This document shows, one piece after another, positions 106 to 38,400 of a stretch of 38,400 bases of DNA (positions are counted from its first letter, which is position 1; each line of letters starts with the position of its first letter). The stretch lies in IMG/VR virus record IMGVR_UViG_3300045120_000222, positions 1 to 38,400 of that record, one strand, 5' to 3'. The notes under the pieces are model-generated. The model searched no databases and had not been told where the DNA came from. It saw only the letters and a list, made by a program, of their open reading frames with translations. The position numbers and the translations under genes are program-made. The DNA comes from a virus.

Positions 106-405
106 CTATCGCTTCTTCCCGAGCTCACGATCACTGTGGTTCTTCTCAGCAGCGCAGCGAGCACAGAGGCTCATGAGGTTGGAGGGTGCATCCGTACCAC
201 CGAACGCCCGTGCCTTGATGTGGTCCACGGTGGTGGCCTTGGCTCCACATCGTTGGCATCGAGGGTTGCGCTCGAGCTTGTGCTTGCGGATCGTGGGCCA
301 GGATCCACCCATGGATGGGCGTGGTCCCCAACCCTTATGCACAGAGCAGGTAGCGGGAGGACGGTAGAGCCGCCCACACTTCAGGCAAGGGCGAAGGCTG
401 GGCAC
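106..405 (-). CDS. HNH endonuclease
   Basis: This is a 99-aa phage HNH nuclease with a GTG start and weak Shine-Dalgarno. Zn ligands form a CxxC/CxxC pair (C50, C53, C81, C84) around the nuclease core: D61-H62 (general base) and N76 in S-N-L-M-S-L-C. An extra CxxC sits at residues 7-10. The third HNH position is unusual: the residue after C84 is Ala where 'CH' is typical, although N89 and H90 follow. In HK97-type phages such HNH proteins lie next to the terminase genes and can be needed for DNA packaging. Here it would be adjacent to TerS/TerL only if the window is circular. Confidence 0.85.
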   Translation of the reverse strand: MPSLRPCLKCGRLYRPPATCSVHKGWGPRPSMGGSWPTIRKHKLERNPRCQRCGAKATTVDHIKARAFGGTDAPSNLMSLCARCAAEKNHSDRELGKKR

Positions 406-10076: not shown

Positions 10077-10937
10077 GTGCATCTCCCCGTTCCAGATGCC
10101 GACGACTTCCCGGCGATATTCGCCGCGTTCGCAGCATTCATGATCGCAAGCGGTTTGGCAGAAACGACCTGCCATAAGTACCGATACGAGCTCATGTGCT
10201 TCGTTGCCGATTTCGCCTGGCTGAACGAGATCGACCCGGTTCACATCACCGAGCAGGAGTTGACCCGCTACATCATCGGCCTCCCTGCTCAGGGGAAGAA
10301 ACGGGGAGATGCGACCCGAGCCCTCAAGGCGTTCTATCGCTGGTGCGACGGCCGCTATCGAACAGATGATCCTGCGGCGGAGATGAGGATCCCCCGAGAT
10401 AAGGCTCCGCCGGCCCCGGAGCTCTCGGATGAAGCCTGCCAGCGGTTGCTCGCCGCGGCCTTCCGGCAGGAACCCAGAAGAGGATGGGCCATGATGCTCG
10501 CACTCGCGACCGGTGCGCGGGTCTCTTCCCTGACCGCGGTCCGACGCGAGGACGTGCATCTCGATGATGCCCAAGGCCCCTGGTTATGGTTCCGCGAAGC
10601 GAAAGGCTCGAAGCCCTACGCCGTCCCGCTGAACGTCCGGGGAAGGACCGCTGCACGGCATCTGCTCGACGGCGGTCTCGACCCGATCATCGGGGTGGGT
10701 CCCGCGAGGTTCCGGCAGTGGGTCCACGCCGCCGAGCAATCCGCCCACCTCGACCGGATCTGGCCCCACCTCCTGCGGCATACGTTCGCCTCGAAGGTGG
10801 CGCGATCAGGCGATGTCGAGGCCTGGCGGAGATTGATGAACCATTCTGATCTGAGCCAGTGGCCTCGATATGTGAGGGCATCGGATGAACGCCTACGAGC
10901 AGCGATAGAAACGGGAGACCGCCCCCAGGTCCGGTAG
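10077..10937 (+). CDS. int: Tyrosine recombinase / phage integrase
   Basis: A 286-aa tyrosine recombinase with a GTG start. Residues 10-105 form the SAM-like core-binding domain (ETTCHKYRYELMCFVADF). The catalytic domain carries R148 (TGARVSSLTAV), K176/K179 (REAKGSKPY), H231-x-x-R234 (HLLRHTFAS), H256 (MNHSDLS) and the nucleophile Y265 (QWPRYV). All active-site residues are present. It lacks a long N-terminal arm-binding domain, so it may be of a simple type. It follows the HTH gene on the same strand after an 88-bp gap. Start choice is uncertain: ATG at 10140 is possible but would trim the core-binding domain. No attP core could be identified. Confidence 0.93.
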   Translation: MHLPVPDADDFPAIFAAFAAFMIASGLAETTCHKYRYELMCFVADFAWLNEIDPVHITEQELTRYIIGLPAQGKKRGDATRALKAFYRWCDGRYRTDDPAAEMRIPRDKAPPAPELSDEACQRLLAAAFRQEPRRGWAMMLALATGARVSSLTAVRREDVHLDDAQGPWLWFREAKGSKPYAVPLNVRGRTAARHLLDGGLDPIIGVGPARFRQWVHAAEQSAHLDRIWPHLLRHTFASKVARSGDVEAWRRLMNHSDLSQWPRYVRASDERLRAAIETGDRPQVR

Positions 10938-25869: not shown

Positions 25870-26207
25870 CAGTAGATCTCCAAGGTGGCGAAGGAACCAT
25901 CGGGGTTCGTGGCTTGCAATACGGCGGTCTCGGGTGAATGAATGACCTTCACCCAGATGTCATAGAGGCCTGCGGTTAATGTCACAGTGCCGGCGGGACC
26001 AACCAGACAGCGGGCGAGATAGCGGGTCGGGGTCGCGGTCGCATCGGTTTCCCAGGTCGCGGCTTTGAAATCTCCGCCCGCAGGAGCGACCTCGGATACC
26101 GGGAACGCCATCGTCACGACATCCCCGGAGACGTTCACGGTGAGTCCCGAATCCCTCAAGGTGACTTCTGCGGGGACGTATTGCAGGTCTTGCGATGACA
26201 TCCTCAC
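25869..26207 (-). CDS. Hypothetical virion-module protein, 112 aa
   Basis: GTG 26207 forms a GTGA overlap with the acidic-repeat gene (ATG 26201 is an alternative). Beta-rich: LTVNVSGDVVTMAFPVSEV, TRYLARCLVGPAGTVTLTAGLYDIWVKVIHSPETAVLQ. This last phrase occurs in small actinophage structural proteins. It may decorate or connect the head. Family not confirmed. Confidence 0.55.
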   Translation of the reverse strand: MRMSSQDLQYVPAEVTLRDSGLTVNVSGDVVTMAFPVSEVAPAGGDFKAATWETDATATPTRYLARCLVGPAGTVTLTAGLYDIWVKVIHSPETAVLQATNPDGSFATLEIY

Positions 26208-28174
26208 GAGAACCTGCTCCTACCTGTTGCCTGCCAACGCGTCCGTCCATAACTCGCCCACCGCTTCTTCGATGATGCCGTCCACCGCAAGGCTAGGGTG
26301 AGTTCCCAACGAGGCCGAACGACAGCGGTGAAGAAGTCGGGACCGGTTCCCGAAGGCGGTGGAGGCGCGGAGAACTGCCCAACGACCTCAAGGTTCGGCG
26401 GCTGGAAGTAGTCCTCGGTCTCTTGCTCCGGATACCACCATTGCTCCGCGAGTGGTTGGGTCGCAGCGATGACCGTGTTATCGATCGGGACGGCTTGGAA
26501 CCAATCGACATCGAGCGGTGTCTGTGGCTGTTCGGGTTGTTCCGGATCGGTGAACTCGAAAATCTGATCTGGCAGATCTTGCGCCGCGTACTGCCCGTCG
26601 TCCCCGGCGAGGAATGCGGTAACGCCGTCGCGGAGCCATGACGGTCCCCAATCGAAAGCGTCATCCTCGGTGGGCCATTGCAGATCCGTGGGGATGTCCA
26701 GCGCCGCGATGTAGGAGTCATCCGCAGCGATCCCCGAGAGCGCCTCGACCTGATCCGTCGCGGCATCAGGGATGAAGTCGGGCTCGGGCTCCGGATGCTC
26801 GGGAAGGAACCACGTTGCAGCGGTGGTGACATCCGGGGCATCGTTCGGGGATAGGTAGCCCTCGATCTGATCCGCGAACTGCTGGTAATCCTCGAGTTCC
26901 GGATCGGGGTAAGCCTGGTAAGGCTCGAGGAGCGGCTGCGCGGCGAGGATCTCGTCCGGGGCGAACTGCGAAGGCGAGAGGTAGCCCTCATTCTGTTCGA
27001 CGTATGGCGTATCGAACTGCGAGAGGTCGTCGGGGAACTCGGGGAACTCCGCGAGCGGCTGGGTCGCGATCGTGATCTCATCGCCCGAGGCGAAGTCCAT
27101 CGACCACGACGTATCGACCGTGGAGTCGTTGGCGTAGTCCTCGGTCTCTTGGTCCGGATACCAAGGCTGTTCAGCGAGGGGTTGGGTAGCCAGGAAGTCG
27201 GTAGTGACATCCGGCGGGAAGAACTGCGCGATCGTCTCGAGCGTGGAATCGTTCTGAAGCTCGGTATCGATGTCCTGGTCTGGGAACCAAGGCTGCTCAG
27301 CCAGGGGGTATTGCGTCGAGATGGTGACATCGAAGGCGTCGTTCGGAGAGAGGAAACCTTCGTTCTGCTCGAGGAACGGAGCCCATTCGAATTCCGGTTC
27401 GGGGTCGAACGTCTGGTCCGACTGCAGCGCCGTGGTGCCGATATATCCGTCATCAACAGCAACCGGCGGGAAGAACGCCGCCGTTACATCGAGGCTTGAG
27501 TCTTGCTGATAGTCCTCGGTCTCTTGCTCGGGGAACCAGGGCTGTTCGCTAAGGGGTTGCGTGGCGATGCTGATCTCATCGCCGGAAGCGAAATCCATCG
27601 ACCAAGCGACATCGATGGTGCTATCGGCTTGGTAGTCCTCGGTCTGTGGCTCGAGGTATTGGTCGTCCTGGCCTATCGAGGGATCGAGCTGTGTTGCGAG
27701 GAAATCGGTGGTGACATCGGGCGGGAAGAGCGCGGGCACCGGATCGAGGGCTTGATCGGGGAATCCGAAGACGCTCGCGGACCAATCCTCGTCCAGCAAT
27801 GTCCATTGATAGTCCTCGTCGTACCGCTGCGCGGCGGGGATCTCATCGCCGGCCACGATCAGCGGGAAGAAGAACGGCGTGATATCCAGACTCGATATAT
27901 GCGCTACATCAACAGCCCAGAATGCTTCCTCGGGCGGTTCCCACCAGTCGTAGAACTCACCGAAGTTCGGTTGCGACAAGACGACGATCCCGGCGAGCGT
28001 CTGGAACGCTTCTGGCTCTTGGAACGCATTGGGTTGGAAAGCAGGAGTTACGACGACTGCTGCAACGGCAAGACCGAATGCTTCGAGGCCGATCTCATCC
28101 GTGACGGTGAAGACACGGACACCGACTTCATCGATGCCTCCGGCGGTATAGCGGCCTACCTCGTTGAGGGCCAA
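26204..28174 (-). CDS. Large acidic, aromatic-rich repeat protein, 656 aa
   Basis: TTG 28174 is the only upstream start (a TGA precedes it) and has SD GGAGGG. N-terminus carries an AFQPNAFQEPEAFQ motif (residues 45-58). Residues 75-600 are repeats around ATQPLAEQPW-x-P-x-QETEDY (near 204, 289, 329, 370, 571), alternating with FFPPDVTTDFLA, DFASGDEI and EQNEGYLSP. Between residues 21 and 619 there are only two Arg and no Lys or Cys; the last 37 residues are strongly basic (KKRWASYGRTRW). No known family. It is probably a virion protein, given its place between capsid and connector; the charge pattern suggests binding to a positive surface or DNA mimicry, with the tail docking elsewhere. Confidence 0.7.
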   Translation of the reverse strand: MALNEVGRYTAGGIDEVGVRVFTVTDEIGLEAFGLAVAAVVVTPAFQPNAFQEPEAFQTLAGIVVLSQPNFGEFYDWWEPPEEAFWAVDVAHISSLDITPFFFPLIVAGDEIPAAQRYDEDYQWTLLDEDWSASVFGFPDQALDPVPALFPPDVTTDFLATQLDPSIGQDDQYLEPQTEDYQADSTIDVAWSMDFASGDEISIATQPLSEQPWFPEQETEDYQQDSSLDVTAAFFPPVAVDDGYIGTTALQSDQTFDPEPEFEWAPFLEQNEGFLSPNDAFDVTISTQYPLAEQPWFPDQDIDTELQNDSTLETIAQFFPPDVTTDFLATQPLAEQPWYPDQETEDYANDSTVDTSWSMDFASGDEITIATQPLAEFPEFPDDLSQFDTPYVEQNEGYLSPSQFAPDEILAAQPLLEPYQAYPDPELEDYQQFADQIEGYLSPNDAPDVTTAATWFLPEHPEPEPDFIPDAATDQVEALSGIAADDSYIAALDIPTDLQWPTEDDAFDWGPSWLRDGVTAFLAGDDGQYAAQDLPDQIFEFTDPEQPEQPQTPLDVDWFQAVPIDNTVIAATQPLAEQWWYPEQETEDYFQPPNLEVVGQFSAPPPPSGTGPDFFTAVVRPRWELTLALRWTASSKKRWASYGRTRWQATGRSRFS

Positions 28175-32157: not shown

Positions 32158-33654
32158 TTACGTGGTTCCTGTACCTGCGCGGAATCCAACCGGGTCCAGC
32201 ACCTTGGAACCGTTCCGCCACCAGGCGAAGAGCCCGCGCTGTCCGGTCGGGAATCCGAACCCAGCACCTGCAACCGCTTGCTGCGTCAGGTTCTGCACCA
32301 GCTCGATGTTCATCCCGACGCGGTCGATGATCTTGAACATGGAGAAGTCACCCAACAGGATGTCCTTCACGCCGTTCACGATCGTCGCCGGGCAGGTCGA
32401 GAGCTCGTTCACCGGGTAGCCCAGCAAACGGAGCCCCGTGTTCCCGTTCCCGCCGTCGCTGCGCGGGTTGTTGTCCAGCAGTTCACCGATGCGGAGCCAC
32501 AGCTGCGCGCCGCCGGCGGTGTCCAGGGCTCGGATGATGTTGTAGATGGCCCGGTTGGCCACCCACTGCGCCCTCGGACGGAATCGCGGTGCGAGTGCCG
32601 CCTCGATCGAGTAGAGGTTCGCTGCCGTGATCGTCAGACCGGTGGACAGTGCCGTCGTACCGGTAGCTCCGGTGAACACACCGAAGGGGTTCGGCGGCGT
32701 GCCGTTCCCGGTGTTGAACGCCGTGGCCTCTTCATCGTCCTTCGCGTCCGCGAACAGACGGGCGAGCGCCGCATCCATCCCGGTCCAGTCCCCCTCGGCC
32801 TCGACCGAGAACGGAACGAACGCCTGCACACGCGAGCAGACGATCGCCGGCTGGGCGAGCGTCGGGGTGTTGTCCGTCGTGACCGCGGCCTCTGCGGCAC
32901 GCGATGCGGTGATCGCCGCCGCCGTGACCCCGCGCCACTCGTTCGCTCCCACGATCTGCTCGACGTTCGAGATCGCCCTCAGCGGGTTCACCACGGATGC
33001 CGAGACGGGGATGATCGTCGGGTCGAGCACGAAGGTGAGCGGGATACCGGTGGTCGAGAGCGAGAATGCACGCTGCTCCTCGTTCGTCATCGGAACGCCG
33101 CTCATCCACTTGCGGAACGCCGACCGGTACTGAGGGGAACCGGTCTTCAGGATCCGGCGGGCGACCTGCCCGTCGGGGGTGTCCATCTGGTCGAGCAGGT
33201 AGGCGACGTGATCCTGGGCACGCTCCGTCGTCCACCCGTACTTCGAGTAGTCGGGGAAGTGCGTGATCTCCACCGCCCGCATCGCACGATCGCGGTATTC
33301 CTGCCGGCCCCTGTCGGGGTTGTCGGGGTCGATCCTCACGGAGGACGTGTCGTAGATGTCCCGCTCTTTGATCGAGACCCGCTCCTCGCGCCGCGGTTCG
33401 AAGACCATCGCCCTCGTCTGACCGTTGTCCTGCGAGAGCCCTTCCAGGTACTTCTGGCGCTTGTCCAACTCCACGACGCGGCTGTCAATCTCGTCGTTCG
33501 TCTCGCGGAGTTCCGCGTACTTCTCCCGAGCGTCCTGCGGGAACGGGAGACCCGCGTACTCCTCCTCGAGCGCGGCGATCTCGCTCTTCACGCCCTTCTG
33601 ATAGTTGCTCAGCTCCTCGACGGAGCGGAGCTCGTCTAGCTTCTCGAAACCCAT
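32158..33654 (-). CDS. HK97-type major capsid protein
   Basis: 498 aa, ATG 33654 with SD GGAGGAG. Residues 1-75 are a coiled-coil delta/scaffold domain (SNYQKGVKSEIAALEEEYAG, YAELRETNDEIDSRVVELDKRQ). The HK97 fold follows: TGIPLTFVLDPTIIP, NPLRAISNVEQIVGANEWRGV, ASRAAEAAVTTDNTPTLAQP, LLGYPVNELSTCP, ILLGDFSMFKIIDRVGMNIEL. The delta region should be removed by the adjacent protease during maturation; the exact cleavage site is not visible. It overlaps the protease gene by 19 nt. Confidence 0.93.
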   Translation of the reverse strand: MGFEKLDELRSVEELSNYQKGVKSEIAALEEEYAGLPFPQDAREKYAELRETNDEIDSRVVELDKRQKYLEGLSQDNGQTRAMVFEPRREERVSIKERDIYDTSSVRIDPDNPDRGRQEYRDRAMRAVEITHFPDYSKYGWTTERAQDHVAYLLDQMDTPDGQVARRILKTGSPQYRSAFRKWMSGVPMTNEEQRAFSLSTTGIPLTFVLDPTIIPVSASVVNPLRAISNVEQIVGANEWRGVTAAAITASRAAEAAVTTDNTPTLAQPAIVCSRVQAFVPFSVEAEGDWTGMDAALARLFADAKDDEEATAFNTGNGTPPNPFGVFTGATGTTALSTGLTITAANLYSIEAALAPRFRPRAQWVANRAIYNIIRALDTAGGAQLWLRIGELLDNNPRSDGGNGNTGLRLLGYPVNELSTCPATIVNGVKDILLGDFSMFKIIDRVGMNIELVQNLTQQAVAGAGFGFPTGQRGLFAWWRNGSKVLDPVGFRAGTGTT

Positions 33655-34715
33655 TCCAAGAACTCCTCTCGGGAACGGAACCGTTGCGGGACGGGTTCAG
33701 GCTTCGCCCGAGGCTGCCCGTCCTCCTCACCCTTCAATGCCCGCTCGATGACCGCAGCGAGATGTTTCGGTTGTTCGCGGGCGAGCCTGGCGAGCTCATC
33801 CTCGAAGGTCGGTGGCTGATACCAATCGGTCATCGAACGCACTGCCGCGGTCGCGGTCGCATACGCCGGGAACGTGACCGGGCCGAACTCATGCACGGTC
33901 GCTTTCGTGATCGTCCGCTCTGGGAGTCCTTTCGGGTTATGCTCGGAAACGCCGGGCTTCCGGTTCACGTCTTGCCCGTCCACGCTGAATCGATACGACA
34001 TCCCGTATGCGTGATTGCGGAGCCCCGACATCACCAAGGGCGGGATTCCATCGAACAATGGCACTTCCGTGTAGGCGTCGGAACGAAGGACCGTGGGGAT
34101 CCCCAAGACCTGATCGCCCATCGATGGATCGCGTCCATGTTGGAAGGTCACCTTCGGGATCGAGCGCTGGAAGGACTCATCCGCGAAGCCTTCTACGCTC
34201 CGTTCCATGAACTGACCTTCTCGCTCCGAGTTGATCTCGGCCCATTCACCGACTGGGGTGAAATGCCCGAAGAGCGTCGGTGCGCCCGTGTCCGTTTCGC
34301 GAAGCTCGTAGTCTGCCGGCGCGATCACCCGGACGAGGTTCTCCCGCAGCGTCCCGCTGGGCTCTGCGCTCAACAGGCCCGTGATCGGATAGAGATCCTC
34401 ATGCCCGTGATTCTTCGGATTCTCTTTGTGATCGAGGACGTGCACGGAGATCAGATCGGTGGCCGACATCCCCGTGAGGTCTTCGGGATCCATCCCATGC
34501 CCATCTGGGCTCACCGCCACGAGATGTGCATGAAGCTCCGAAGCGCTGGTTGGAGCCGGACCCTTATCCATACGAGCCGCCCTCACATTGATGTTGAGCG
34601 CAGCGAGCTGCGCTTGGGCTTTCGCTTTCGTGGGATGACAGCCAACCGTCTTGCCGTTGGAGTTCTGGACCACGGCGAACGGTTTGGAAGCCGGGCAACT
34701 GGCGCTGTTGGGCAC
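33636..34715 (-). CDS. Prohead protease (HK97 U35-type)
   Basis: 359 aa, ATG 34715. N-terminal add-on (residues 12-41, PFAVVQNSNGKTVGCHPTKAKAQAQLAAL) recurs in actinophage proteases. Core: GHFTPVGEWAEINSEREGQFMERS, then H193 (VTFQHGRDPSMG) and S240 (YGMSYRFSV), with IPTVLRSDAYTEVPLFDG between and KATVHEFGPVTFPAY after. The His/Ser pair fits U35 proteases that mature the capsid. C-terminal charged tail. It follows the portal and overlaps the capsid gene. Confidence 0.87.
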   Translation of the reverse strand: MPNSASCPASKPFAVVQNSNGKTVGCHPTKAKAQAQLAALNINVRAARMDKGPAPTSASELHAHLVAVSPDGHGMDPEDLTGMSATDLISVHVLDHKENPKNHGHEDLYPITGLLSAEPSGTLRENLVRVIAPADYELRETDTGAPTLFGHFTPVGEWAEINSEREGQFMERSVEGFADESFQRSIPKVTFQHGRDPSMGDQVLGIPTVLRSDAYTEVPLFDGIPPLVMSGLRNHAYGMSYRFSVDGQDVNRKPGVSEHNPKGLPERTITKATVHEFGPVTFPAYATATAAVRSMTDWYQPPTFEDELARLAREQPKHLAAVIERALKGEEDGQPRAKPEPVPQRFRSREEFLEWVSRS

Positions 34716-34733: not shown

Positions 34734-36221
34734 TCATCCCCCCGATGGTTTCCCCGGAGGCAAGGAAGCTGGTTTCCCTGCACCGTTACCGACTGCCGCT
34801 GGATTGACCGGAGGCTTCTCCGGTCCGGTTCCCTCGCCGACCGGCGTCTCCCCCGGCGTCTCGCCCTGCGGCATCTTCGTTGAACCAGGGGCTTGAAGCT
34901 GAACGGAGAACAGCCCGGTGTGCTCACCCTTGAGAACCGAATCGTCTCCGCTCAGAACCGCATCGATGACCGCGTCGGCCTTGAACCCCGCCTCGAGCAG
35001 TTGGCGGATGTGCTGCGCATTGGTGAATCCGATGTCGGCCTGGTCCTTCGCGTCCTCCCGAAGGAACCCAACATCCGAGTCGTCATACCAGAGGTCCGAA
35101 TCGGGCGGGGTCGTGATGATCCGCTCGAGGGAGCCGCAGTAATTCCGCCAGAGGGGTCTGATGGTCCCATCCGCGAACCGCCGGCGGGCCGCGGAGTAGT
35201 TCCCAGTGTTCAGGCTCGAGCCCTGCAATCCCTCCGAGAGTCCGACGAGGACGGGTGGGGTCTCGAAGGCTTCCGCGATGCGGGTCTCCCCCGCGCCTTG
35301 GATCGCCTTGAAGTCGGACTGTTGGAGGTTGGAGCCGAGAACCTTCGCATCTGCGCCGTTGGCGAAGAACAGCACATCGAACGCATCCGTGGTGGCCTTG
35401 TGGCGGGCGTGGAAGTCGGAGACCAGCTTGTTGAACTTGTCGGGGTCGTTCAGCGCGGGGTTGTCGATCTTCACGACCATCGTCCCGGTCGCCCCGTGCT
35501 CGAACCACTCGAGCTTGTGCTGGGTCGCCTTATCGTCCGAACGGATCTCATCCACGATCGGCGAGAGGCAGGCCATGCCCTTCCACGGAGAGATGGGGTC
35601 CGGGGTCGGCGCGTAGTGCGCCATGTCCTTCACGTCGATCAGGATCGGGTCCTTCTGGGAATGCCTCCCACCGGGCTGGTAGACGTAGCCCTGGATCTCC
35701 CAATCGACCCCGTCGAGGTCTCCGGTGAAGATGATCGAGATCCAATCCGGCCGCAGGATGTAGAGCCGAGAGGAAGAGGGCCGGTAGACGAAGGCGTTCC
35801 CGGCCAGCATCCCGTGCTGCTCCGAACGCATCAGCAGATCGCCGGAGGTGGCCCCGGGCCATGGATGCTTCAAGAGCTGCAGGTCTCGGTTCCCGGGAGA
35901 GCGCTTGTCCGAGCTCCCGATCATCTGCGTCGTGTGGAGATCCATCTCCTTGCGGAACGCGAAGCGGACCTCCGAGAACACCCGGGAGCGGAGCGCCATG
36001 CACGCGAAGACGATCGGGTTCGCCCGCATCGCCGCGGCCATCCCGGGGAAGTCGTTCGGGATCTCATCTGCCGGCGTGGAGGGATATGCCGTCATCAACG
36101 GGTACCGGATCCCGTTGAACATCATCGATTGGTCGTAGATCCACTGATTGACGGAATACGGATAACCCGACCGGGTCTCAGGCCAGAGATTGAGGTCTTG
36201 CAGGAACGACTTCACGCCCAC
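34734..36221 (-). CDS. Portal protein (HK97-type)
   Basis: 495 aa with GTG start at 36221. Portal features: NPIVFACMALRSRVFSEVRFAFR (early), GDLLMRSEQHGMLAGNAFVYR, LYILRPDWISII, then the crown/stem region AHYAPTPDPISPWKGMACLSPIVDEI, RIAEAFETPPVLVGLSEGLQGSSLNTGNYSAARRRFADGTIRPLWRNY. The last 40 residues are a Gly/Pro-rich disordered tail. It forms the dodecameric DNA gateway. A separate plus-strand gene pair sits directly upstream. Confidence 0.93.
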   Translation of the reverse strand: MGVKSFLQDLNLWPETRSGYPYSVNQWIYDQSMMFNGIRYPLMTAYPSTPADEIPNDFPGMAAAMRANPIVFACMALRSRVFSEVRFAFRKEMDLHTTQMIGSSDKRSPGNRDLQLLKHPWPGATSGDLLMRSEQHGMLAGNAFVYRPSSSRLYILRPDWISIIFTGDLDGVDWEIQGYVYQPGGRHSQKDPILIDVKDMAHYAPTPDPISPWKGMACLSPIVDEIRSDDKATQHKLEWFEHGATGTMVVKIDNPALNDPDKFNKLVSDFHARHKATTDAFDVLFFANGADAKVLGSNLQQSDFKAIQGAGETRIAEAFETPPVLVGLSEGLQGSSLNTGNYSAARRRFADGTIRPLWRNYCGSLERIITTPPDSDLWYDDSDVGFLREDAKDQADIGFTNAQHIRQLLEAGFKADAVIDAVLSGDDSVLKGEHTGLFSVQLQAPGSTKMPQGETPGETPVGEGTGPEKPPVNPAAVGNGAGKPASLPPGKPSGG

Positions 36222-36534: not shown

Positions 36535-36744
36535 ATGGCCGCGACACCAAGGTTCAAGGTCTACACCGGAGCGGGTGAGTACGTCGGCGCGGTGAAATAC
36601 GCCGAGGACGCCGCCGCGCTTGCGAGCCTGCACGGTTCCGGGTCAACGGTTCGGGATGGCCACCGCAAGGTCGTATGGACCGCTGCGGATACCCTCGATT
36701 CCTACGACGAAGCCGCCGAAGCGATCTACGCCGCGCTCGGTTGA
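36535..36744 (+). CDS. Small plus-strand protein, 69 aa (moron candidate)
   Basis: ATG 36535 after SD AAAGGA. Sequence RFKVYTGAGEYVGAVKYAEDAAALASLHGSG, then TVRDGHRKVVWTAAD and a helical end (SYDEAAEAIYAAL). The 'KVY..GEYV...KYAEDAAAL' pattern recurs in small actinobacterial and actinophage proteins of unknown function. It shares the transcript with 36312 and is followed 5 nt later by a strong terminator. Confidence 0.78.
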   Translation: MAATPRFKVYTGAGEYVGAVKYAEDAAALASLHGSGSTVRDGHRKVVWTAADTLDSYDEAAEAIYAALG

Positions 36745-36749
36745 CAAGC

Positions 36750-36810
36750 AGCCTCCGGCCCCCGCCTCCCTCTCTCTGACAAGTCAGGGACTAGGGGGCC
36801 GGGGGCTTTT
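36750..36810 (+). terminator. Rho-independent terminator for the plus-strand pair
   Basis: 14-bp GC-rich stem AGCCTCCGGCCCCC / GGGGGCCGGGGGCT (36750-36763, 36794-36807; one G-U pair) with inner pairing, then TTTT. It ends at the TerL stop. Confidence 0.85.
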
Positions 36811-38237
36811 CAGGCCCACCCGAACATCACATCGCCAACGGGAACGACCTGCGTCATCTCGCATCCAGCCGCGAGGGCCAGGAGCCCGGTGATCGGCCGC
36901 TGGGTCGCCGGGTCGAACCGCCAGCCCTTCCCTGTCTGCTTCGTGGTCGCTCCCATCACATGGGACCTCAGGACCGGATCGCCGTCGTGGTGGAACTTCC
37001 CGTCCTCGAGAAGCTTCCAGAACGTCGCGGAAGCCATCTCCATCCGCTGCTCCGAGAGGGGCTGTTGGATGACCTGCAACCCCTCGGCTTCGAGCTCGTC
37101 CGCAGCGTGCTCGAACGACTTCGAGACGTACACCATCCCCAACACATCGAACTTCGCGACCAGGGCACGGACCGCGTCCTGGATCTGCTGGTAGGTCACG
37201 TTCCCCTCGAGGATCTGGACCTTGGAGTCGATCCGCTCCGGCTGGAACCGCAAGGTTGCGATGGCCGTCGATTCGCGCTTGATGCCTAAGGCCACGGCCA
37301 CCCAGACCTGGGAGCCGGCAGGGATCTCCTCGGCGTCACCCAGCGGATCCCACAGCTCGGGCGGGACGGCCGGCTCTTCGCCCTCCGTCCAGATCCCGCA
37401 TCCGAACCGGAGCCATTGCCAGGGAGTCACGGCTGCCTGCTCCTTCGCCAGCATGGTCAGGGTCTTCCAGGGAGCCGGGTTCACGAGCTTCACGGTCTTC
37501 AGGTCGTTCGGGTCGTCATCGAGGTTCAGGCACCATTCGATGAAGGCGAACGACCCGTCCGGGGAGCGCACGAACGAGCGCCGCTTCTTCTGATCCCGCT
37601 TGAACCCCGGCATCTCGTAGGCCCGCCGACGCTTATCTCCCAAGGGTGTGTCCATCGAGGAGCCGGCTGTCGAGATCGTGATCATCCGGCCTCCCGTCGT
37701 TCCAACAGCCAATCGAAGGACGGCATAGAGCTCCGAGGTCTTATGGCGGTGCAGCTCGTCCACGATCGCCAAGGTGGGCAAGACCCCATCCGCGGTGTCC
37801 TCATCGGAGGCCAACACCCGAGCCCTGCCTTCGTCCTGCAGGGACAGGATCTCCCGCCGCATCACTCGAAGATGGGGAGCCAAGCCCGGCGTCTGCCGGA
37901 TAAACTTCCGAGCCTGCCTCAAGATGATCTCCGCCTGCTCCCTCGAGGCCGCTACCACGATGCATTCGGCGTCCGGGGTGACCAGGACGTGATAGACCAC
38001 AAGCGCCGCGATCAGGGTGGACTTCCCGTTCTTCTTCGGCAGGATCACGATCGTCTCCTCGGCCCCGTCGAAGTAGGGCGCGAGGATGTCGAGCTGCTCG
38101 GGGTAGACCTTGAAGGGCTTCAGGTCGATCTGAAGTTCGCTACAGAAGGCCTCGAACTGCCGAAGTTCAGGCGGTCTTCGCCCTCTTGACCGCGAGTTGG
38201 TCGATGACGCTCTCGGTTTGGCCCGTGTTGTCACCAT
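36810..38237 (-). CDS. Terminase large subunit with degenerate nuclease domain
   Basis: 475 aa. ATPase domain: Walker A PKKNGKST (67-74), Walker B LAIVDE (156-161), motif III TISTAG (188-192, coupling). The C-terminal RNase H-like nuclease is recognisable (VWVAVALGIKRESTAIATL; FEHAADELEAEGL; HHDGDPVLRSHV; PITGLLALAAG), but the three usual catalytic Asp are replaced: A316 where V-D-x-G is normal, V371 where Y-D-P is normal, T450 where I-D-A is normal. So the packaging motor looks intact while cleavage may be lost or shifted to another protein. The ATG 38237 start overlaps the TerS candidate by 71 nt. Confidence 0.9.
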   Translation of the reverse strand: MVTTRAKPRASSTNSRSRGRRPPELRQFEAFCSELQIDLKPFKVYPEQLDILAPYFDGAEETIVILPKKNGKSTLIAALVVYHVLVTPDAECIVVAASREQAEIILRQARKFIRQTPGLAPHLRVMRREILSLQDEGRARVLASDEDTADGVLPTLAIVDELHRHKTSELYAVLRLAVGTTGGRMITISTAGSSMDTPLGDKRRRAYEMPGFKRDQKKRRSFVRSPDGSFAFIEWCLNLDDDPNDLKTVKLVNPAPWKTLTMLAKEQAAVTPWQWLRFGCGIWTEGEEPAVPPELWDPLGDAEEIPAGSQVWVAVALGIKRESTAIATLRFQPERIDSKVQILEGNVTYQQIQDAVRALVAKFDVLGMVYVSKSFEHAADELEAEGLQVIQQPLSEQRMEMASATFWKLLEDGKFHHDGDPVLRSHVMGATTKQTGKGWRFDPATQRPITGLLALAAGCEMTQVVPVGDVMFGWA

Positions 38238-38343
38238 CTCTGCGGAGTTCCGTCATGAGGATCCGCATCGCAGGCACATTGCCCTTGCGAGCGGCTTTCC
38301 AGAGCAATTCCGTGAGTTCCTCGAGGTCGCCGGTCTCCGCCAT
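38167..38343 (-). CDS. Candidate small terminase or terminase-linked protein, 58 aa
   Basis: ATG 38343, with an in-frame stop only 21 nt upstream, so the ORF is complete. Sequence is two helices (ETGDLEELTELLWKAARKGN and VPAMRILMTELRRDG) then a tail (VIDQLAVKRAKTA). Location directly before TerL and the helical, partly basic content fit a small terminase, but 58 aa is well below the usual 100-170 aa. No HTH is clearly visible. It could be a truncated or alternative partner. Confidence 0.45.
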   Translation of the reverse strand: MAETGDLEELTELLWKAARKGNVPAMRILMTELRRDGDNTGQTESVIDQLAVKRAKTA

Positions 38344-38364: not shown

Positions 38365-38400
38365 TCATTTTTTCGCCCTGGCGCGCGCCGTGAGCAAGAG
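38365..38400 (-). CDS. C-terminal end of an upstream gene, cut by the window edge
   Basis: Twelve codons (LLLTARARAKK and TGA) open to the right edge. In a circular reading they continue the Cys/His-rich ORF that runs off position 1. Confidence 0.4.
   Translation of the reverse strand, partial: LLLTARARAKK

Follow-up and report, generated by a model that had tools for sequence, protein, structure and literature searches.

A phage large terminase with whole ATPase motifs and a degenerate nuclease domain, and an HNH protein as candidate cutter of its cos-like genome ends

We analysed a 38,400-nucleotide stretch of viral DNA (IMG/VR record IMGVR_UViG_3300045120_000222, positions 1 to 38,400; hereafter the window), whose large terminase subunit (TerL) has whole ATPase motifs but lacks the catalytic aspartate triad of its nuclease domain. 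The window probably represents a cos-type phage with a TerL that acts as motor only, in which the precise cut at cos would be made by a separate endonuclease, most probably an HNH protein; we put the probability of this reading at roughly 0.6. The TerL gene and the three codons at issue, which were read straight from the DNA, are:

36810–38237, minus strand: TerL, 475 amino acids, with an intact packaging ATPase (residues ~25–290) and a catalytically degenerate RNase H-like nuclease domain (~288–475)
37290–37292, minus strand: codon GCC for Ala316, motif I, in the column of HK97 D302
37125–37127, minus strand: codon GTC for Val371, motif II (YVSKSF in place of YDPWxF), in the column of HK97 D388
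36888–36890, minus strand: codon ACC for Thr450, motif III (PITGL in place of PIDAL), in the column of HK97 D471

The gene matched Pfam TerL_ATPase (2.4e-19) and TerL_nuclease (8e-06) as well as PHROG_9 (6.5e-66). In a profile alignment, residues 316, 371 and 450 fell on D312, D398 and D481 of the 6z6d chain, which correspond to D302, D388 and D471 of native HK97, the catalytic aspartates of its TerL (PMC9410871). These three aspartates, together with D322 and W373, are invariant in 31 of the 31 intact relatives of the DPW type. Besides the triad, the window TerL lacks Trp373 and the lysine that precedes D442. All ATPase motifs are present (Walker A PKKNGKST, Walker B IVDE, and STAG). Thus, both the loss of the three carboxylates and the intact motor, which the original prediction had read from this one sequence, were borne out. 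Descent and fold make the window protein a TerL; its predicted nuclease chemistry does not.

Scanning viral contigs with TerL queries gave ~80 related TerL loci (L numbers); apart from isolates, all compared sequences are metagenomic. About 24 of these TerLs lacked one to three of the catalytic aspartates in the alignment, nearly all of them on metagenomic phage contigs. Residues at the three positions are AVT in the window, GGD in L003 and L004, HVA in L014, DDA in L015–L017, HTA in L023, VTS in L026, DDG in L027, SPR in L018, KVD in L047, DDR in L049 and L057, SDR in L069, RGE in L073 and L082, -DE in L019, and RDA in a group comprising L032, L033, L037, L056, L067, L068 and L080. Among 20 degenerate rows tallied, Thr405 was present in all and Trp373 was kept in none. 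Since more than 20 independent loci are degenerate alike, an error in a single contig is excluded, as had been argued from the window alone, and neither half of the gene shows an abnormal codon-position GC. Seven relatives were found in bacterial metagenome-assembled genomes, mostly of Solirubrobacterales and other actinobacteria, and the six readable motif sets were all intact (DDD). An earlier scan of named bacterial genomes found no relatives, and a literature search for nuclease-deficient TerL returned no report.

In other TerLs, the two-metal site is built from two motif-I acids plus the aspartate triad. Could the degenerate TerL still cut, with a metal site formed by E322, D418 and D420 or by remaining groups? 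E322 does occupy the motif-I acid position (Asp in 31 of 31 intact relatives), and one or two catalytic aspartates are kept in L015–L017, L027 and L049. However, intact relatives conserve D418 and D420 just as well, so that these two are ancestral rather than compensating residues; HK97 has no acidic counterpart to them. Apart from E322, six residues past A316, and E376, five residues past V371, no acid lies close to the three sites, which rules out a misaligned or shifted aspartate. Alignment with the relatives revealed no new conserved acid at the site, and the lysine before D442 and Trp373 are gone as well. We therefore consider residual cutting by TerL improbable, and the three residues that the original prediction had named as a possible metal site do not overturn it.

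Trees were built with 24 degenerate rows, including the window and omitting L004, a near copy of L003. In the ATPase-domain tree the degenerate TerLs are scattered among intact relatives, with at least six changes of state, and constraining 23 of them to one clade was rejected (approximately unbiased test, p-AU 2.5e-108). In the nuclease-domain tree, from which the catalytic columns had been removed, 23 of the 24 degenerate rows form one clade (support 98/92), with L019 apart. Given one nuclease clade against scattered ATPases, the nuclease domain looks like a cassette exchanged by recombination. Pairwise comparisons run the same way: the window and intact L002 share 82% identity in the ATPase and 32% in the nuclease domain, with identity falling from near residue 295, and the window and nuclease-dead L023 and L026 share 51% in the nuclease domain and 50–52% in the ATPase. 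One origin of the degenerate domains is likely rather than proven, because long branches could help the grouping. The dead state was not tied to one clade of the portal tree, which is weakly resolved. What the original prediction described as one unusual protein appears to be a recurrent, recombining domain variant.

An AlphaFold2 (AF2) model of the window TerL (predicted local distance difference test score 91.3) aligned with HK97 TerL 6z6d at Z 27.9 and with the G20c nuclease 5m1f at Z 18.1 (root-mean-square deviation 3.0 over 171 residues), so that the C-terminal RNase H-like fold is predicted to be retained. The ratio of nonsynonymous to synonymous substitutions (dN/dS) of the nuclease part was 0.006–0.25 in related pairs (0.006 for L056/L068, 0.022 for L032/L037, 0.06 for L003/L004 and 0.25 for L023/L026). 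Purifying selection acts on the degenerate nuclease domains, and a pseudogene is ruled out by these values. The low dN/dS together with the retained fold therefore points to a non-catalytic use of the domain, which may be structural or may lie in binding DNA, portal or TerS.

If such phages are still cut at cos, then their contigs should end at a defined position upstream of the small (TerS) and large terminase genes. The relevant features of the window are:

38368–38400, minus strand: left genome end, cos-like; 11 nucleotides, then GGCGCGCGCC (38380–38389), then GGGCGAAAAAA (A-tract 38368–38373)
38167–38343, minus strand: mini-TerS-like open reading frame (ORF), 58 amino acids, overlapping the TerL start; it resembles only the C-terminal part of a full TerS and has no helix-turn-helix
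1–105, minus strand: putative right genome end, with a short ORF that is cut by the edge of the record, placed from the cos layout

Genome ends were taken from the assemblies. Of 23 dead contigs, 17 had an end at most 350 nucleotides upstream of TerL (1.6 expected), as had 30 of 58 intact ones (3.0 expected); L004 was wrongly placed among the intact rows here, a shift of one. The dead contigs L014, L015 and L017 end 12 nucleotides ahead of GGCGCGCGCC (variant CGCGCGCGCC in L015), and the window ends 11 ahead; L032, L033, L056, L068 and L080 all end at (C)GTCAGCACA; L023, L026 and L027 end 10 nucleotides ahead of CCGGG(G)AA. GCGCGCGCC was present within the first 35 nucleotides of 11 of 58 contigs (0.01 expected) and a GGGAGAAAA-type motif in 22 of 58 contig ends (0.28 expected), both patterns having been picked after inspection of the ends. 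As a control free of such bias, the most frequent 7-mer was counted: it was present at 12 contig ends, and control slices gave no more than 7 contigs. Terminal motifs are common to dead and intact phages, and two relatives, L016 and L067, run on across the end. Since independent dead contigs share the end nucleotide and the terminal motifs of intact relatives, the cos site is apparently still cut: the nuclease-dead phages appear to have defined ends upstream of TerS/TerL, and the coincident contig ends probably represent cos sites cut in virions.

These ends bear on the suggestion, made in the original prediction, that DNA is packaged without sequence-specific cutting, as by a gene-transfer-agent-like particle, and likewise on headful-like packaging. 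The absence of a catalytic TerL nuclease would fit, as would a sole TerS-like ORF without a DNA-binding helix-turn-helix. Yet a gene transfer agent would carry random DNA without defined ends, and the ends of the dead relatives coincide down to the nucleotide and in their conserved motifs; moreover, the window retains integrase, methyltransferase and head genes. We regard packaging of either kind as very improbable and did not retain it.

As to TerS, tblastn found relatives of the mini-TerS in L003, L014, L015, L017, L021, L008 and L010, and full-length TerS is encoded in L018, L038 and L077. Full TerS-like ORFs lie at 1195–1701 of L018, preceded by a methyltransferase-like ORF, and at 1690–2334 of L019.

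The gene next to the putative right end encodes the candidate cutter:

106–405, minus strand: HNH endonuclease at the other genome end (Pfam HNH 1.5e-09); VDH and SNL are kept, and the helix His/Asn ligand is replaced by Ala85

Its nearest homologues from isolates include the right-end HNH proteins of SfV, SfI and SfII. The original prediction had proposed a different nuclease and singled out this protein; it remains the best candidate, since its gene occupies the opposite end of the genome, where phiC31 and SfV have theirs. Across the end and just upstream of TerL, an HNH gene is also present in the dead contigs L016, L067, L082 and L057 (the L057 copy is cut by the contig end) and in the intact L006, L009, L035, L045, L055, L058 and L077. 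Upstream of TerL in L073, an EndoVII-like gene of the HNH superfamily occupies 3–560, and its close relative L082 has a short HNH.

We propose that a temperate, cos-type soil phage with an HK97/phiC31 layout ([end]-mini-TerS-TerL-portal-protease-capsid ... HNH-[end]) would use TerL as a translocating ATPase, and that its RNase H-like domain, though non-catalytic, would be retained for a structural role or for binding. The HNH protein, encoded across cos, would have been present first, so that TerL catalysis could be lost; recombination at the boundary between ATPase and nuclease would then have carried the degenerate domain from phage to phage. In a stricter form the labour would be fully divided, with TerL as motor only, the RNase H domain an exchanged cassette, TerS a stub and HNH presumably cutting both strands as sole cos endonuclease; to this form we give about even odds.

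Several observations weigh against HNH as the cutter. The helix His/Asn of HNH enzymes is a metal ligand, and the window HNH has Ala85 where other aligned HNH proteins have His or Asn (CxxC[HN]xxK), so it may itself be weak. Asn89 and His90 sit about one helical turn past Ala85. L018 and L019, with degenerate TerL and full TerS, have no HNH in the 1.6–2.3 kb upstream. HNH also accompanies intact TerLs, so that its presence does not by itself predict TerL loss. The ends were read from assemblies rather than mapped on virion DNA, and the activity of all members was judged from sequence only. The missing helix ligand and the two contigs without adjacent HNH would also suit another cutter that works in trans, either an enzyme of the host or a phage protein not recognised as a nuclease, and for most early window genes no family gave an informative hit. 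Among the window proteins scanned, however, HNH is the only recognisable endonuclease, and it sits at the cos-side genome end like its counterparts in SfV and phiC31. We therefore consider another cutter unlikely, though worth keeping in mind, and favour HNH.

Other recognised genes of the window are:

34734–36221, minus strand: portal protein (Pfam Phage_portal 2.7e-30)
33636–34715, minus strand: prohead protease (Pfam Peptidase_S78 2.6e-4)
32158–33654, minus strand: HK97-fold major capsid protein (Pfam Phage_capsid 3.4e-30)
10077–10937, plus strand: tyrosine integrase, as in a temperate phage (Pfam Phage_integrase 4.9e-14)

A small ORF between TerL and portal (36535–36744, plus strand) had no relatives and was dropped. 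Imperfect direct repeats of 50–125 nucleotides lie at 26387–27652, within a large ORF (26204–28174, minus strand).

The integrase also bears on whether a cut is needed at all. In phi29 a protein-capped genome of unit length is packaged without TerS or cutting (PMC9410871, PMC7672431), and its gp16 is a known vestigial TerL nuclease (PMC7672431), so a phi29-like mode could be imagined here. But a tyrosine integrase implies a circular intermediate, L016 and L067 run on across the end, and neither DNA polymerase B nor terminal protein was matched among the window proteins in a scan that was not exhaustive. This mode is hardly credible for the window, and we return to a cos cut probably made by HNH.

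Published overviews describe the TerL nuclease domain as universal in tailed phages (PMC7824862) and state that packaging ATPases other than those of the phi29 group all have a working nuclease (PMC7672431). The nuclease-dead phages appear to break this rule, yet still make defined ends. In HK97 it is open whether the two strands are divided between TerL and HNH, one each, or are both cut by TerL (PMC11331095), and the nuclease-dead phages offer a natural experiment on that question.

HK97 resembles the window in its TerL fold, its HNH partner (gp74), its cos-type ends and an A-tract near the end, but its TerL retains D302, D388 and D471. In HK97, gp74 acts as a stimulator of TerL in cos cleavage, may itself cut one of the strands, and is not known to take the place of TerL (PMC9410871, PMC11331095). 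In the Streptomyces phages phiC31 and phiBT1 (Lomovskayavirus), the order TerS-TerL-portal-protease-capsid, the right-end HNH (gp30, at 41099–41446 of 41491 in phiC31) and the left-end motif CTCGGAAAACGCGCGC (phiC31 left end CCCGGCCCCAGCTCGGAAAACGCGCGC) recall the window, whereas the TerL nuclease is intact (DDD) and TerS is full-length. Shigella phages SfV, SfI and SfII also carry HNH at the right end, but SfV HNH keeps the helix His in CxxCH where the window protein has Ala. In phi29 gp16, as in the window TerL, an ATPase is joined to an RNase H-like domain that is vestigial and non-catalytic; the C-terminal domain of gp16 still binds DNA (PMC7672431). The gp16 domain is structurally reduced, whereas that of the window TerL is predicted to keep the full fold.
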